Assembly (NCBI RefSeq): GCF_902764455.1
Contig: NZ_CACWVY010000007.1
Span: forward strand, 1-61,832
Direction of reading: 5' to 3'
Origin: an uncultured Methanobrevibacter sp.
GTDB taxonomy: Archaea > Methanobacteriota > Methanobacteria > Methanobacteriales > Methanobacteriaceae
Length of the DNA stretch: 61,832 nucleotides
In this document: positions 10,243 through 36,568 of the stretch, piece after piece
How the letters are laid out: each line of letters opens with the position of its first letter
Position numbering within the stretch: the first letter of the stretch is position 1
Notes under the pieces: generated by a model
Databases searched by the model: none
The model's input: the letters and a program-made list of their open reading frames with translations, nothing else
Told to the model about the DNA's origin: nothing
Made by a program: the position numbers and the translations under genes

Positions 10243-10860
10243 TTAAAACTCCTCAAATAATTTCCATATTTCAGGATATTTTTTGGAGACAGCCTCATCA
10301 ATTAAGGTTGAGGCCTCTTTAGAAATACTGAATTCAGGCTCGGTTTTACGCAGGTACCTGAATACTGCTGATGATCTTGCAGACCAGAGTGTAATTCTAG
10401 GATTCTTATTAACAATTTCTTTAACTTCATCAACATGAGCAGTATCTATTTGTTTTTCTTGTGATTCTTGTACATTTCCTTCACTGCTGTCTTCGCCAGA
10501 TATGTCCTCGGACTGCTCATCGCGCTCAACAGTTCCCTCTTGCTGATTTTCTTGTCTGATTTCTTCATCACTATCGGAATTAGTATCAGTCTCTTCCACA
10601 TTTTTCTCATCCTCTAATTCTTCAAATATATTTTTTGGTTTTTCTTCTTCCTTTGGAGATTCCTCTGCCTTAGGTTCCTCATCCTTTGGAGAATCTTCTA
10701 CCTTATCTTCTTCTTTTTTTGGAGATTCCTCTACCTGAGGTTCCTCATCCTTTTCATTTAGCATGTCCTCTAATGATGGAGTAGAATTACTGTCAAAATC
10801 TTCATCATAAAATTCAGGAATTAGAGAATCTAATCCTTTTCCGAGACCTTTACGAGGCAT
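10243..10860 (-). CDS. ParA-partner protein: ParB-type N-terminal peptide, acidic linker, small C-terminal domain
   Basis: The 205-aa product begins MPRKGLGKGLDSLIPEF. Residues 3-15 closely match the N-terminal ParA-stimulating peptide of bacterial ParB/Spo0J (KGLGKGI or RGLGRGL followed by ALx). The ParB CTPase and helix-turn-helix core is absent. Residues 20-140 are an acidic, low-complexity linker with imperfect ESPK-EE repeats. Residues 141-205 are a compact basic/aromatic domain, with RITLWS as a possible strand followed by two or three helices ending KYPEIWKLFEEF. The layout, a disordered tail plus small C-terminal domain, recalls archaeal SegB, whose C-terminus is ribbon-helix-helix; that link is inference. 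Its ATG overlaps the parA stop (TAATG), so the two are translationally coupled. Confidence 0.75.
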   Translation of the reverse strand: MPRKGLGKGLDSLIPEFYDEDFDSNSTPSLEDMLNEKDEEPQVEESPKKEEDKVEDSPKDEEPKAEESPKEEEKPKNIFEELEDEKNVEETDTNSDSDEEIRQENQQEGTVERDEQSEDISGEDSSEGNVQESQEKQIDTAHVDEVKEIVNKNPRITLWSARSSAVFRYLRKTEPEFSISKEASTLIDEAVSKKYPEIWKLFEEF

Positions 10861-11639
10861 TATACATCCTCCTCATCACGTTTAAGGATTTCTTTTGCTA
10901 ATTTTAAATAAGCTTTAGTTCCAGTACTGTCTGGATCATAAATTAAACATGGTTTACCAAAACTTGGTGCTTCAGCCAATCTGATGTTTCTTGGAATAAT
11001 GGTTTTAAACAATAGATTACTTTCACTAAAGTGGTTTTTCAATTCTTTATGAACATCTTTACTCAATCTGGTTCTCTTATCATATAGAGTTAGGAGAATT
11101 CCTTTAATTGGGGTTGGACTTCTAAGTCTCTTTTCGACTAATTGAATTGTATTAATTAAATCAGCCACTCCTTCAAGCGCATAATACTCAGCTTGGATAG
11201 GTATTAAAACACTATCGGAAGCTACTAATGCATTGACTGTTATGACACCTAAAGAAGGAGGTAAATCGATGAAAACATAATCAAATAATGGGACTACATC
11301 CTTAAGAGTTTCCTTTAAAATTATATGATAATTTTCTCGTTTAGAAAGCTCCACACCAGCACCACTAAGGGATATATTACTTGGGATAATAAACAAATTT
11401 TTAATAAACGTAGGAATTGTTGCTTTTTTAATACTAATATCCCCAATGATGGCATCGTAGATTGTATTTTCTATTGTAGTTTTATCAATCCCAAAACTAG
11501 TTGTAGCATTAGCTTGAGGATCCATATCAACCACTAAAACAGACTTTCCCATCACTGCTAGAGATGTCGCAGTATTTACAACAGTAGTTGTCTTACCGCA
11601 ACCCCCTTTCTGATTCATCACCGCAATTACTTCACTCAT
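10860..11639 (-). CDS. ParA/Soj/SegA-type chromosome partition ATPase
   Basis: This 259-aa protein has the deviant Walker A motif KGGCGKTT (Lys11 and Lys16), a Walker A' at VLVVDMDPQAN (34-44) and Walker B YVFIDLPPSLG. The size and motifs are those of small chromosomal ParA/Soj ATPases without an N-terminal DNA-binding domain. Such proteins dimerise on ATP and bind DNA non-specifically; a partner's N-terminal peptide triggers hydrolysis, moving DNA or cargo. The next gene in the operon supplies just such a peptide, and a dense motif array lies directly upstream. MinD-like positioning is a less likely alternative, since no C-terminal amphipathic helix is evident. The start ATG at 11639 follows AGGAGAATTC. 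Confidence 0.9.
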   Translation of the reverse strand: MSEVIAVMNQKGGCGKTTTVVNTATSLAVMGKSVLVVDMDPQANATTSFGIDKTTIENTIYDAIIGDISIKKATIPTFIKNLFIIPSNISLSGAGVELSKRENYHIILKETLKDVVPLFDYVFIDLPPSLGVITVNALVASDSVLIPIQAEYYALEGVADLINTIQLVEKRLRSPTPIKGILLTLYDKRTRLSKDVHKELKNHFSESNLLFKTIIPRNIRLAEAPSFGKPCLIYDPDSTGTKAYLKLAKEILKRDEEDV

Positions 11640-12057
11640 TAAAGAATTCTCCTATTTCTGATAAGTTTTAAGTTATCAGTTATGAATTATAACTTAAAAA
11701 TTCTATATTTTAATGAATAACAATTAAGTTATTCAGTATAAGTTAAAAGAACTAAGTTATTACTTCTTAATTATAACTTAAAGGAAATAACTTCTAAGTT
11801 CTAACTTCTAAGGGATAGGAATTAAGTTTTAAGTTAAAACTTCAAAGTTATAAAAAATAAGTTTTAAGAAATAACTTATCATAACTAACTTTTAACATAT
11901 AAGTTATATTTTATAACTTCTATCTTATAAATTATTCGTTTTCACATATAAGTTAACACTTAACACTTGCAAGTTATTAGTTATAAGTTATAACTAAAGA
12001 AAAAAAATTATAAGTTATAACTTATAAGTAAAAAAATATAAAAAAAATAAAGAAGGA
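11640..12057. repeat. Dense AAGTTAT/ATAACTT palindromic array (candidate partition site)
   Basis: The gap between parA and trpB2 holds roughly 15 AAGTT and 9 AACTT half-sites, most within TAAGTTAT or ATAACTTA, in direct and inverted order from 11663 to 12027. The longest perfect palindrome is TTATAAGTTATAACTTATAA at 12008-12027. That palindrome and a separate 24-bp stretch (11972-11995) recur exactly at 21928-21956. The array also must contain the parA promoter and the trpB2 terminator; the end near 12000 has a minus-strand T-run behind the palindrome. Its position directly upstream of the ParA operon resembles parS or SegB sites. Binding by the partner protein is inference. Confidence 0.8.
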
Positions 12058-15143: not shown

Positions 15144-15163
15144 AAAGAGTTATTCCCTCTTTT
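15143..15163. terminator. Bidirectional terminator hairpin
   Basis: AAAAGAG and CTCTTTT with a seven-base loop, lying between and into the convergent 3' ends of the PHP and Alba genes, with A/T-runs on both sides. Confidence 0.6.
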
Positions 15164-15425
15164 CAATTAAAATTTCTATAATAGACACATTTGTTTTTTC
15201 GTGGTTATAGTTTTCAATTTCTTCTGTAGAAATTTGAATATCTGTAACTTCTGAATTTGGAACAAACCTATTTCTGACAATTTCAGCAGCATCGACAGCT
15301 CTACTGATAGCTTTACCTCTAGCTCTTAAAAGAACACTATCTGAACCATCATTGAATTGAGTTACAACTGCTAAAACATAATTCATAACAGGTTTACTTC
15401 CAACAAAAATTGTATTTGTTTCCAT
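15150..15425 (-). CDS. albA: DNA/RNA-binding protein Alba
   Basis: 91 aa, the normal Alba size. It starts with [18 protein letters not shown], where the lysine of GSKP matches the acetylated DNA-binding lysine region of Sac10b, and continues with the conserved [21 protein letters not shown] core. Alba dimers coat DNA or RNA in archaeal chromatin. The window thus encodes both chromatin proteins, this one and a histone at 32555. Confidence 0.93.
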
Positions 15426-21193: not shown

Positions 21194-21907
21194 ATGAAAC
21201 TGGGTTTTACTACACTGGCTTTATTTATGGAACCTAACAATGACATCATCGATTTAGCTAAAAAACATGGATTTGAAATAATTGAAATACTTGCAGAAGG
21301 TCCTTTTTTTGAAAAAGACAATGGTGAATTTAAAGATTGCGGTCTGGACATTAGAATGCATGCTGCAACAGTGGACATTAACATCGCAAGTTTAAACCAG
21401 GGAATAAGAGCTGAAAGTGTAAGGCAAATGATTCATTGCGGGCATTATGCAGAAAGCATCAATGCAAATACAATAACTGTCCATCCGGGAATAATAGGCA
21501 GAAATGAACCGCACCTTAGAAAATGGGCACTGGAAATGTCAATTGAAAGTATTGGACAAATAATAGACAACACTAACGTTGAGATTTCAGTTGAAAATAT
21601 GCCTGTTCGTGGAAAATTCCTGGCAAATACAGTTGAAGAACTTGAAATGATTCAGGAAGCTACAGGTTGCAGCCTGACAATTGATACAGGTCATGGAAAT
21701 ACTTGCGGAAACCTTGAGGAAATGCTTTCTCTAAAAAATATAAGTTACTGTCACTTGAATGATAATGATGGAGTTAAAGACCAGCACATCACCTTAGGCG
21801 AAGGTACACTTGATTTAAATTTACTTAAAAAAATCGATACGGCAATTATAGAGCTGAATAACTTCGACAATATTCTTAAAAGCAAAGAGGTTATTGATAA
21901 CTTATAA
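21194..21907 (+). CDS. Sugar phosphate isomerase/epimerase-like TIM-barrel protein
   Basis: 237 aa of the xylose isomerase-like/AP endonuclease 2 fold. MKLGFTTLALF starts the barrel. Metal-ligand motifs are visible: TVHPG, EISVENMP, LTIDTGHGN and SYCHLNDNDG. It is shorter than endonuclease IV (~280 aa), favouring a sugar isomerase-type role. The substrate is unknown. It is transcribed away from the padR operon, and its stop is followed by the satellite motif cluster. Confidence 0.83.
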   Translation: MKLGFTTLALFMEPNNDIIDLAKKHGFEIIEILAEGPFFEKDNGEFKDCGLDIRMHAATVDINIASLNQGIRAESVRQMIHCGHYAESINANTITVHPGIIGRNEPHLRKWALEMSIESIGQIIDNTNVEISVENMPVRGKFLANTVEELEMIQEATGCSLTIDTGHGNTCGNLEEMLSLKNISYCHLNDNDGVKDQHITLGEGTLDLNLLKKIDTAIIELNNFDNILKSKEVIDNL

Positions 21908-21927
21908 TTTATAATTATTTTTTTATC

Positions 21928-21966
21928 AGTTATTAGTTATAAGTTATAACTTATAAGTTAAAAGTT
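21928..21966. repeat. Satellite copy of the ParA-array motif
   Basis: Positions 21928-21951 are identical to 11972-11995 of the array, and 21937-21956 is the same perfect 20-bp palindrome as at 12008-12027. It is followed by TAAGTTAAAAGTTATAA. It lies between convergent genes with T-runs on either side, so it may double as a terminator. I read it as a dispersed member of the array family. Confidence 0.75.
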
Positions 21967-21981
21967 ATAAAAAAATAAGGG

Positions 21982-26062: not shown

Positions 26063-26074
26063 TTATGAAAAATT

Positions 26075-34783: not shown

Positions 34784-35931
34784 TCAAGTAATGTTTCATC
34801 ACATTGAAGTTTGATAATATTGGTTCTTCCTTTTCCACGACCACGTGAAACTGTGTTTGTAGAAATAATACCCAATAACTCAAGTTCATTTATAAAATCA
34901 AAGATTCTTCTATAGGTTACAGCATCTTTTTTGGAAATTTCCTTATATTCCTCATATAATTTACCTGAAGATATTTCTTCATCCTGCTTTGTCAAGTTGA
35001 GGATAGCTTCCAAAACCCTTTGTTGCTGTAGCGGCAATGTGGAAATAATTTCAGTAACTTTATTGTGTTCAATAGTATCCTTAGCTTTTCTTACATGTTC
35101 ACCTGTGACTTTTTCTGAATTATCATCAAATGCCAATTCACCTGCATTTTTTAAAAGATCAAGAGCATATCTTGCATCACCTTCTTCTTTAGCAGCCATT
35201 GCAGAACATAATGGAATTACATCATCATCCAAAACTCCTTCTTTAAAAGACAACTCTGCCCTTTCAGATAAAATGTCAGATAACTGATCTGCTCCGTATG
35301 GAGGGAAAACAATCTCCTTATCTTTTAAGCTGCTGGTTACTCTGGATTTTATTAAATTCTTAAAGTCTAAAAAGTTACTGATTGATAAAACAGAAACATT
35401 GTCTGTTCTTGTTAATGTGTATAATATTCCATCACCATCTTTTTCAAGCAAAATGTCAATCTCATCCAAAATAACAATTAATTGCAGTTTTTTACCGAAT
35501 GCATTGGTTCTGAAAATATCCCTGAATGTGTTGACAACTTCACCTTTAGTCCAACCACGATTAGGAACATCACGGCCTAACTGATTACATAATCTGGCTA
35601 AAACCTGATACTCAGTATTGTAATCTGTACATCTGACATATTCAACTTTAACAAATACATTTTTCTTATTAGCAATTTCAATTAGCTGTTCACGTGCAAA
35701 CTTGGATGCTGCAGTCTTTCCTGTTCCTGTTTTTCCATAAAGAGTAACATTAGAAGGAGTAATGTTGTTTAAAACATCTACCCAATATTTTGCAATCTGT
35801 CTGATTTGATCTTCTCTGTGAACCAATTTATCAGGTAAATATCTATGATCCAATGGAGCTTTATCTTTAAATATACTTTTCGATACTGTATTACCCATAT
35901 CTTTTTCTAAATCTTCAAAAACGTTTGACAT
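34762..35931 (-). CDS. orc1: Origin recognition/initiator protein Orc1/Cdc6
   Basis: The ATG at 35931 ([12 protein letters not shown]) follows GTGGTGG; 389 aa. AAA+ motifs: Walker A GKTGTGKT (66-73), Walker [12 protein letters not shown], sensor 1 SISN, then a sensor-2/lid domain. A C-terminal winged helix (~300-389) includes [16 protein letters not shown]. It binds origin boxes and loads MCM. The gene borders the origin and reads away from it, the usual archaeal arrangement. Confidence 0.96.
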
Positions 35932-35965: not shown

Positions 35966-36568
35966 AATAATTAAGTATAATTTCCAGTGTTATTAATATT
36001 TACCACCTGATAAATAAACTTTTTCATTGCAAAAGTGCCATGAATTGATAAATTTAAGAAAATGTAAAAAATTTTCTCTGTTTAAAATGATTTATAATAT
36101 TATTAAACAATTTAAATTTACTATTTTTAATAAATTGAAGTTAAAATTGAATATTTATAAGAATTAAATATTTTAAGACATTTAAAATAAAAAAATGAAA
36201 TATCACTATTTCAAATATAAAATAATAATTTCAAGTGTAAATATTAAAGAAAAACAATGAAAATAAGGCCTCAGATGGCTTGAAAAACAAGATTTTTGAA
36301 AAAATTATAATGATTTTACATTGAGAGGGAGACATGTATTGCAAGTGTAAACAATTTCATGCGCAAAGCAAAATTGAAGGGGTGTGTTTCAAGTGTAACA
36401 AAAATGAGAAATTGTAATGAAATTGTAACATGATAGACACAATCAAATAATGTAGTGAAAATGAAAAAATAGAGAGATAAATTTCAAGTGTTTACAGTTG
36501 AAATATACCTCTTCTGTCTTAATATACCCTCGTAAATGTTACAGTTGAAAAGTACCTCTCCCTCTCTA
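35966..36568. other. Replication origin (oriC) with inverted ORB clusters
   Basis: The gap of about 630 bp upstream of orc1/cdc6 holds repeated origin boxes. Minus-oriented TTACACTTGAAA-type cores lie at 36229-36240, 36339-36350 (one change), 36387-36398 and, weaker, 36482-36493. Plus-oriented TTACAGTTGAAA cores lie at 36492-36503 and 36539-36550. The boxes at 36339-36350 (read on minus) and 36539 (read on plus) both carry TCTCCCTCTC at bases 19-28, so a full box is about 28 bp. An extremely A/T-rich stretch (36030-36230) would be the unwinding element. The core equals the mini-ORB described in Methanothermobacter. Confidence 0.92.

Follow-up and report, generated by a model that had tools for sequence, protein, structure and literature searches.

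A probable euryarchaeal segAB operon in Methanobrevibacter with a ParB-type tail on SegB and a lattice of 7-bp repeats before segA

In the window analysed here (the whole stretch of 61,832 nucleotides from an uncultured Methanobrevibacter sp.), a pair of adjoining genes was found that is very probably the euryarchaeal form of the chromosome-segregation operon segAB, in which SegB would sit on 7-bp repeats (heptads) and its N-terminal tail would drive SegA. Judged by the homology of its second product, the locus is a euryarchaeal segAB operon, a kind of system already published (PMC5120986, PMC12284271). In the literature searched, no description of a ParB-type tail joined to SegB was found, no paper containing the heptad strings, and no earlier report of the heptad lattice or its distribution; an earlier mention is possible, and priority is not certain. 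The heptad site is defined and has predicted positions in several finished genomes of the Methanobacteria, which brings the euryarchaeal centromere within reach of a single test by gel shift or ChIP-seq. The common tail would tie the archaeal system mechanistically to the activation of bacterial ParA.

Table 1. Positions of the genes, protein regions and repeat sites in the window
Feature	Position	Strand	Description
segA	10860..11639	-	Soj/ParA-type Walker ATPase, 259 aa
segB	10243..10860	-	205-aa partner of segA, directly downstream
segB tail	10816..10860	-	N-terminal; ParB-type, putatively ParA-activating; residues 1-15 = MPRKGLGKGLDSLIP
segB linker	10447..10812	-	variable, acidic; residues 17-138
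segB C-terminal domain	10246..10446	-	predicted ribbon-helix-helix-type DNA-binding domain, residues 139-205; profile match to SegB
Candidate SegB-binding/centromere array	11662..11997	.	continuous 7-bp register of 48 TAASTTA heptads, some degenerate
Three extra heptads	12011..12031	.	shifted register, at the far end of the intergenic region that holds the array
Isolated six-heptad site	21926..21967	.	candidate dispersed SegB site, convergent intergenic gap
orc1/cdc6 (TIGR02928)	34807..35874	-	replication-origin marker at a distance of 24 kb from segB; listed for context and not part of the system

The gene pair and the identity of its second product

A ParA ATPase and a partner forming a two-gene unit at 10243-11639 had been proposed from a sequence-only reading of this DNA, and both open reading frames were present there. 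The overlap of stop and start codons in TAATG, also read earlier, was found at 10858-10862, with one base common to both genes. The product of segA matched AAA_31 (E 5e-62). Its nearest solved structure was the M. xanthus ParA (8ray, 244 bits), whereas the Sulfolobus SegA (7dut) reached only 64 bits.

The product of segB opens with MPRKGLGKGLDSLIPE and contains the ParB-like tail GLGKGLDSLIP, followed by the long acidic linker that had been noticed before (49 D/E and 13 K/R among its 122 residues). No Pfam or NCBIfam family matched the protein, including ParB/Srx CTPase and helix-turn-helix families, in agreement with the earlier statement that the partner carries neither fold. The C-terminal domain, which had been called unknown, was found to match a known one. 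A HMMER profile of 27 such domains, searched against the PDB, matched the ribbon-helix-helix domain of the Sulfolobus SegB (7dv2/7duv) over the whole domain length with an E-value of 3e-11, and the next matches followed at E 0.13 and above. The domain was nearly invariant among homologues, with the consensus NPRI[TS]LWSxxSAAVxRYLRKTxPEFSISxEASxLIxEAxxxKYPEIW. The structure prediction that had been suggested for detecting a ribbon-helix-helix fold agreed in part. The AF2 monomer of the domain (pLDDT 81.5) placed SegB chains as the top three Foldseek matches, with E-values that were not significant, and the monomer showed no ribbon strand. A histone-like fold, considered from the SIS/EAS pattern, was rejected; H2B appeared only below threshold (E 0.13 and above), and SegB fitted far better.

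By this homology of the C-terminal domain with SegB, the operon is segAB. The earlier reading had spoken of an analogue of SegAB, which was right as to the likeness and too weak as to the kinship. Its remark that no system with this domain order had been described holds for the ParB-like tail on a SegB domain, but not for the euryarchaeal segAB operon, which has been published. Its view of the partner as a small ParA adaptor is supported, with a tail of the ParB activating type and a C-terminal domain of a known DNA-binding fold.

Of the 139 genomes of the family, 123 contained segB (17/17 genera), as did 136 of the 152 genomes of the phylum set, the Methanobacteria (20/20 genera). At every locus read it stood beside segA, after a ParA. 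In the family search that had been proposed, the homologues kept the tail and adjoined parA, and the C-terminal domain is of a known DNA-binding fold; the outcome named earlier as a refutation did not occur. In three Thermococci loci (L104, L106, L108), the segB product was about 105 residues long and had a short linker. The apparent absences of segAB in G064, G084 and G094 were contigs ending inside the heptad array, or an open segA; homologues without segAB were for this reason discarded as negative controls. Several Methanobrevibacter MAG contigs (L191, L193, L194) end inside a heptad array, and segAB is thus falsely missing from such genomes. A search of the phage set with the Sulfolobus domain as the query found no SegB on archaeal viruses.

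A few loci stood apart. One labelled 'Bacilli bacterium' (L046) contained a Methanobrevibacter segAB locus at 95% identity and is probably a misassigned contig. A plasmid of Methanohalobium evestigatum (pMETEV01, L187:4944-6469) encoded a protein of 177 aa whose C-terminal domain resembles that of SegB (33% identity, E 9e-4). Its gene follows an AAA-type ATP-binding protein and not a ParA, lies next to orc1/cdc6 and has 7-bp-periodic TATAAAG repeats upstream; the protein is possibly a plasmid SegB with a different motor.

The ParB-type tail and its putative docking pocket

The start of the segB product had been read as the ParA-stimulating peptide of ParB/Spo0J, and this was borne out as a sequence pattern. 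All 145 SegB tails extracted showed the xLGxGLxxLI motif without variation, the extraction being regex-based with the motif itself as the query; by inspection, essentially every intact partner carried the tail. The tails of 11 full-length bacterial ParB proteins, whose genes adjoin those of the closest bacterial ParAs, showed the same columns. The distance between the tail and the C-terminal domain varied from 36 to 254 residues in the homologues. The invariance of the tail beside a hypervariable linker argues that the tail has a role, even if it is convergent.

SegB has been described as a protein without similarity to ParB (PMC9178275, PMC12284271). In the Sulfolobus SegB, the N-terminus is basic, and its visible part, KKKRKSEDEEKIINN, is without GLGxGL, in one protein whose residues 1-8 and 24-25 were unseen. 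The ParB-type tail is essentially universal in the SegBs studied here and apparently lacking in that of Sulfolobus. The N-terminal region of the Sulfolobus SegB stimulates SegA (PMC11229316, citing Yen 2021), and the activation of SegA would thus differ at least in sequence.

The tail covers only about 11 residues, and the remainder of the protein is without ParB similarity, as would be expected if this short motif had arisen by chance or convergence and did not serve to activate ParA. This explanation is very unlikely, in view of the invariance of the motif in 145 SegBs whose adjoining linker varies freely, and of an ATPase from the Soj lineage, in which the partner proteins have this tail as well. 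The docking pocket is also mostly retained in SegA. In the M. xanthus ParA, a pocket formed by Y81, E82, D110 and E117 receives the central Arg/Lys of the ParB tail (PMC12462528). These residues align with Y61, D62, S90 and E97 of the SegA studied here, where three of the four are kept (Tyr61, Asp62 and Glu97). The pocket Tyr was retained by most of the SegA homologues, and Tyr together with Glu in most cases.

The heptad lattice and the dispersed sites

Half-sites of AAGTTA/TAACTT were found to fill the 418-bp gap upstream of segA. In dissimilar relatives, the distances between half-sites were 7k for FF/RR, 6+7k for FR and 8+7k for RF pairs, which identifies the unit as a 7-bp pseudo-palindrome, TAASTTA, on a fixed lattice. 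The motif array that had been noted directly upstream of the operon is real; 31 of the 39 neighbouring G/C-centred heptads in the window were in 7-bp phase, whereas 1000 dinucleotide shuffles gave 3.3 on average and never more than 11. Over 51 upstream regions dissimilar to one another, the in-phase pairs of neighbours numbered 551 of 666 (shuffle maximum 41). The lattice recurs before segA across the Methanobacteria and was also present upstream of segA in the Thermococci, with p 0.0002-0.0004 in L106/L108 and a marginal p of 0.08 in L104. No heptad array was found directly upstream of segA in G139. The 13-bp frame consensus was TTATAA-S-TTATAA, and TTATAASTTATAA had 39 matches in the window against 8.8 expected, concentrated at 11659-12034 and 21895-21970. 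The 7-base-step repeat is probably the DNA gripped by SegB.

The Sulfolobus motif TCTAGASTCTAGA had 6 matches in the window at up to 3 mismatches (11 expected) and was thus not enriched; only the layout is common. Euryarchaeal SegB sites were expected to diverge from the Sulfolobus motif (PMC12284271, a 2025 study), so the sequence of that motif is not defining for the SegAB family. A loose search of the window for the 16-bp parS palindrome of bacteria gave 11 matches against 2.9 expected; those with one mismatch lay at 1341-1356 and 36385-36400, and further matches at 26073 and 46249. The match at 36385-36400, which has the sequence TGTTACACTTGAAACA when read on the opposite strand, lies 0.5 kb upstream of orc1/cdc6 and is perhaps a mini-ORB-like origin-recognition repeat.

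Dispersed sites were searched in genomes with three heptads at up to 3 mismatches. The isolated sites consisted of 4-8 heptads and formed clusters around segAB, as a rule close to orc1/cdc6. In the genome of the window, the site at 21926-21967 was the perfect one outside the array; other, weaker sites lay on unplaced contigs. In three relatives (L191, L193, L195), heptad sites adjoined the two genes that border this gap in the window or lay between them. In G139 (1,243,342 bp), all six sites, each of exactly five heptads, lay at 1.0736-1.1365 Mb, within 63 kb, with segB at 1.043 Mb. In G149 (1,751,377 bp), all five sites lay at 1.2869-1.3621 Mb (75 kb) and spanned segAB; segB is located at 1.319 Mb there, and orc1 at 1.278 Mb. 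The positions predicted to be occupied by SegB in G149 are 1286879-1286913, 1294865-1294899, 1317957-1318005, 1337245-1337272 and 1362083-1362110. The chance of such clustering under random placement was about 2e-6 in G139 and 2e-5 in G149. The sites of G151 and G039 were likewise clustered, with one stray weak site in G039. No 3-heptad site at up to 2 mismatches was found in G123 (M. stadtmanae-like).

Two three-heptad sites, 330 bp apart, lay inside a 400-aa open reading frame (L177, G000:C10:15882-16248). One 241-kb contig (G119:C4; L189, L190) contained ten or more heptad sites, crowded towards one of its ends and sparser further along; segAB was not found in this genome and may lie just past the end of the heptad-rich contig.

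The longest array sits directly upstream of segA, as would an operator by which SegB or another regulator autoregulates segAB, the whole being a regulatory or plasmid-type module without a role in chromosome segregation. Omega and other ribbon-helix-helix partition proteins double as repressors. In pSM19035, parS overlaps promoters (PMC9499535), which also favours an operator. This explanation is nevertheless unlikely, since isolated sites occur far from segA, among them the convergent gap at 21926-21967 where no promoter is expected, and since those of G139 and G149 are gathered in 5% of the genome. An array of 48 heptads is far beyond the need of an operator, and the operon is near-universal and origin-linked, which is not plasmid-like.

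The main orc1/cdc6 gene was found 9-25 kb from segAB in most of the finished or near-finished genomes, the exceptions being G149 and G145 (about 40 kb), G019 (about 85 kb), G139 (about 200 kb) and G141 (about 310 kb). A gene at 15150-15425 of the window, 3.5 kb from segA, encodes a 91-aa protein which we take by eye to be an Alba-like chromatin protein. The sites and segAB both lie near orc1/cdc6 in most genomes, and the heptads might be bound by a replication initiator or another protein of the origin region, with the closeness to segAB being incidental. Such a reading is highly improbable; no heptad array flanks orc1 in the window, and the arrays follow segA both in the Thermococci and in G141, a genome with a long distance between segA and orc1. 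The palindrome with a central S and the 7-bp period are, moreover, the layout of the published SegB motif.

The preferred reading, a segAB operon with SegB on the heptads, allows a mechanism to be proposed by analogy. Against this reading count the distance between segAB and orc1 in G139 and G141, the missing array before segA in G139, the missing three-heptad site in G123, the marginal lattice of L104, the tail-less Sulfolobus SegB and the AF2 monomer with its non-significant Foldseek matches. In pSM19035, each 7-bp repeat is occupied by one dimer of the omega protein, and ParA is activated only where four or more repeats are contiguous, five being equal to seven (PMC9499535). SegB has been described as wrapping DNA in an omega-like superhelix (PMC9178275). 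Together with the stimulation of SegA by the N-terminus of SegB and with sites of 4-8 heptads, this suggests a coat of SegB on DNA. SegB dimers would bind side by side to TAASTTA through the ribbon-helix-helix domain, one dimer per 7 bp. They would coat the long array before segA, where SegB may also repress the operon, as well as the short sites of 4-8 heptads dispersed over the segAB/origin region. Many ParB-type GLGKGL tails would be displayed on this coat by the acidic linker. On meeting SegA-ATP dimers bound to DNA, the tails would dock and stimulate the hydrolysis of ATP, in the manner of the ParB tail acting on ParA. Through repeated cycles of capture and release, the origin regions would then be moved apart by a diffusion ratchet, and in this way the system would segregate the chromosome.

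Comparison with known systems

The form of the archaeal chromosomal centromere and the variation of SegAB in Euryarchaeota have been named as open questions (review, PMC5120986), and in Thermococcus a 2025 genome-wide study reported no SegB motif near segAB (PMC12284271). Like the pair studied here, the Sulfolobus SegAB is an overlapping segA-segB pair with a homologous SegB domain, and its sites occur upstream of segA and also dispersed, clustered near segAB and the origin. The consensus of the Sulfolobus SegB is TCTAGA-S-TCTAGA, with sites clustered at segAB/oriC1 that are mostly intragenic (PMC12284271). Both this consensus and TTATAA-S-TTATAA are S-centred palindromes with a 7-bp period, but their bases differ. 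The sites read in our study were mostly intergenic, and long contiguous arrays were present. The SegA found here is much closer to the bacterial Soj than to the Sulfolobus SegA, and its SegB partners have the ParB-type tail that the Sulfolobus SegB seems to be without.

The bacterial ParABS system (Soj/Spo0J) shares with the present one a ParA of about 50% identity, the activating tail GLG[KR]GLxxLIP, an origin-proximal operon and several dispersed sites near the origin. Unlike bacterial ParB, the segB product has no CTPase fold, helix-turn-helix or ParB C-terminal domain, and heptads seem to stand in place of the 16-bp parS. No canonical ParB gene was found in six of the ten genomes searched, and the other four gave weak, mostly sub-cut-off ParB_N matches. 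The sole match above the cut-off, a 207-aa ParB-like protein, adjoins a DNA methyltransferase and was rejected as a canonical ParB elsewhere in the genome, as it is without the GLGKGL tail.

The delta-omega-parS system of pSM19035 is similar in its ParA, its small ribbon-helix-helix protein and its contiguous 7-bp repeats, at least four in number and in either orientation; it differs in being plasmid-borne and in its heptad, WATCACW. No omega match appeared in the PDB searches. It is fairly probable, at a lower confidence than the assignment to segAB, that the SegB centromere is a lattice of 7-bp steps in both archaeal branches (TTATAA-S in Euryarchaeota and TCTAGA-S in Sulfolobales) occupied by side-by-side ribbon-helix-helix dimers, and that the euryarchaeal system, with a SegB domain, a bacterial ParB tail and a Soj-type ParA, is part ParABS and part SegAB.
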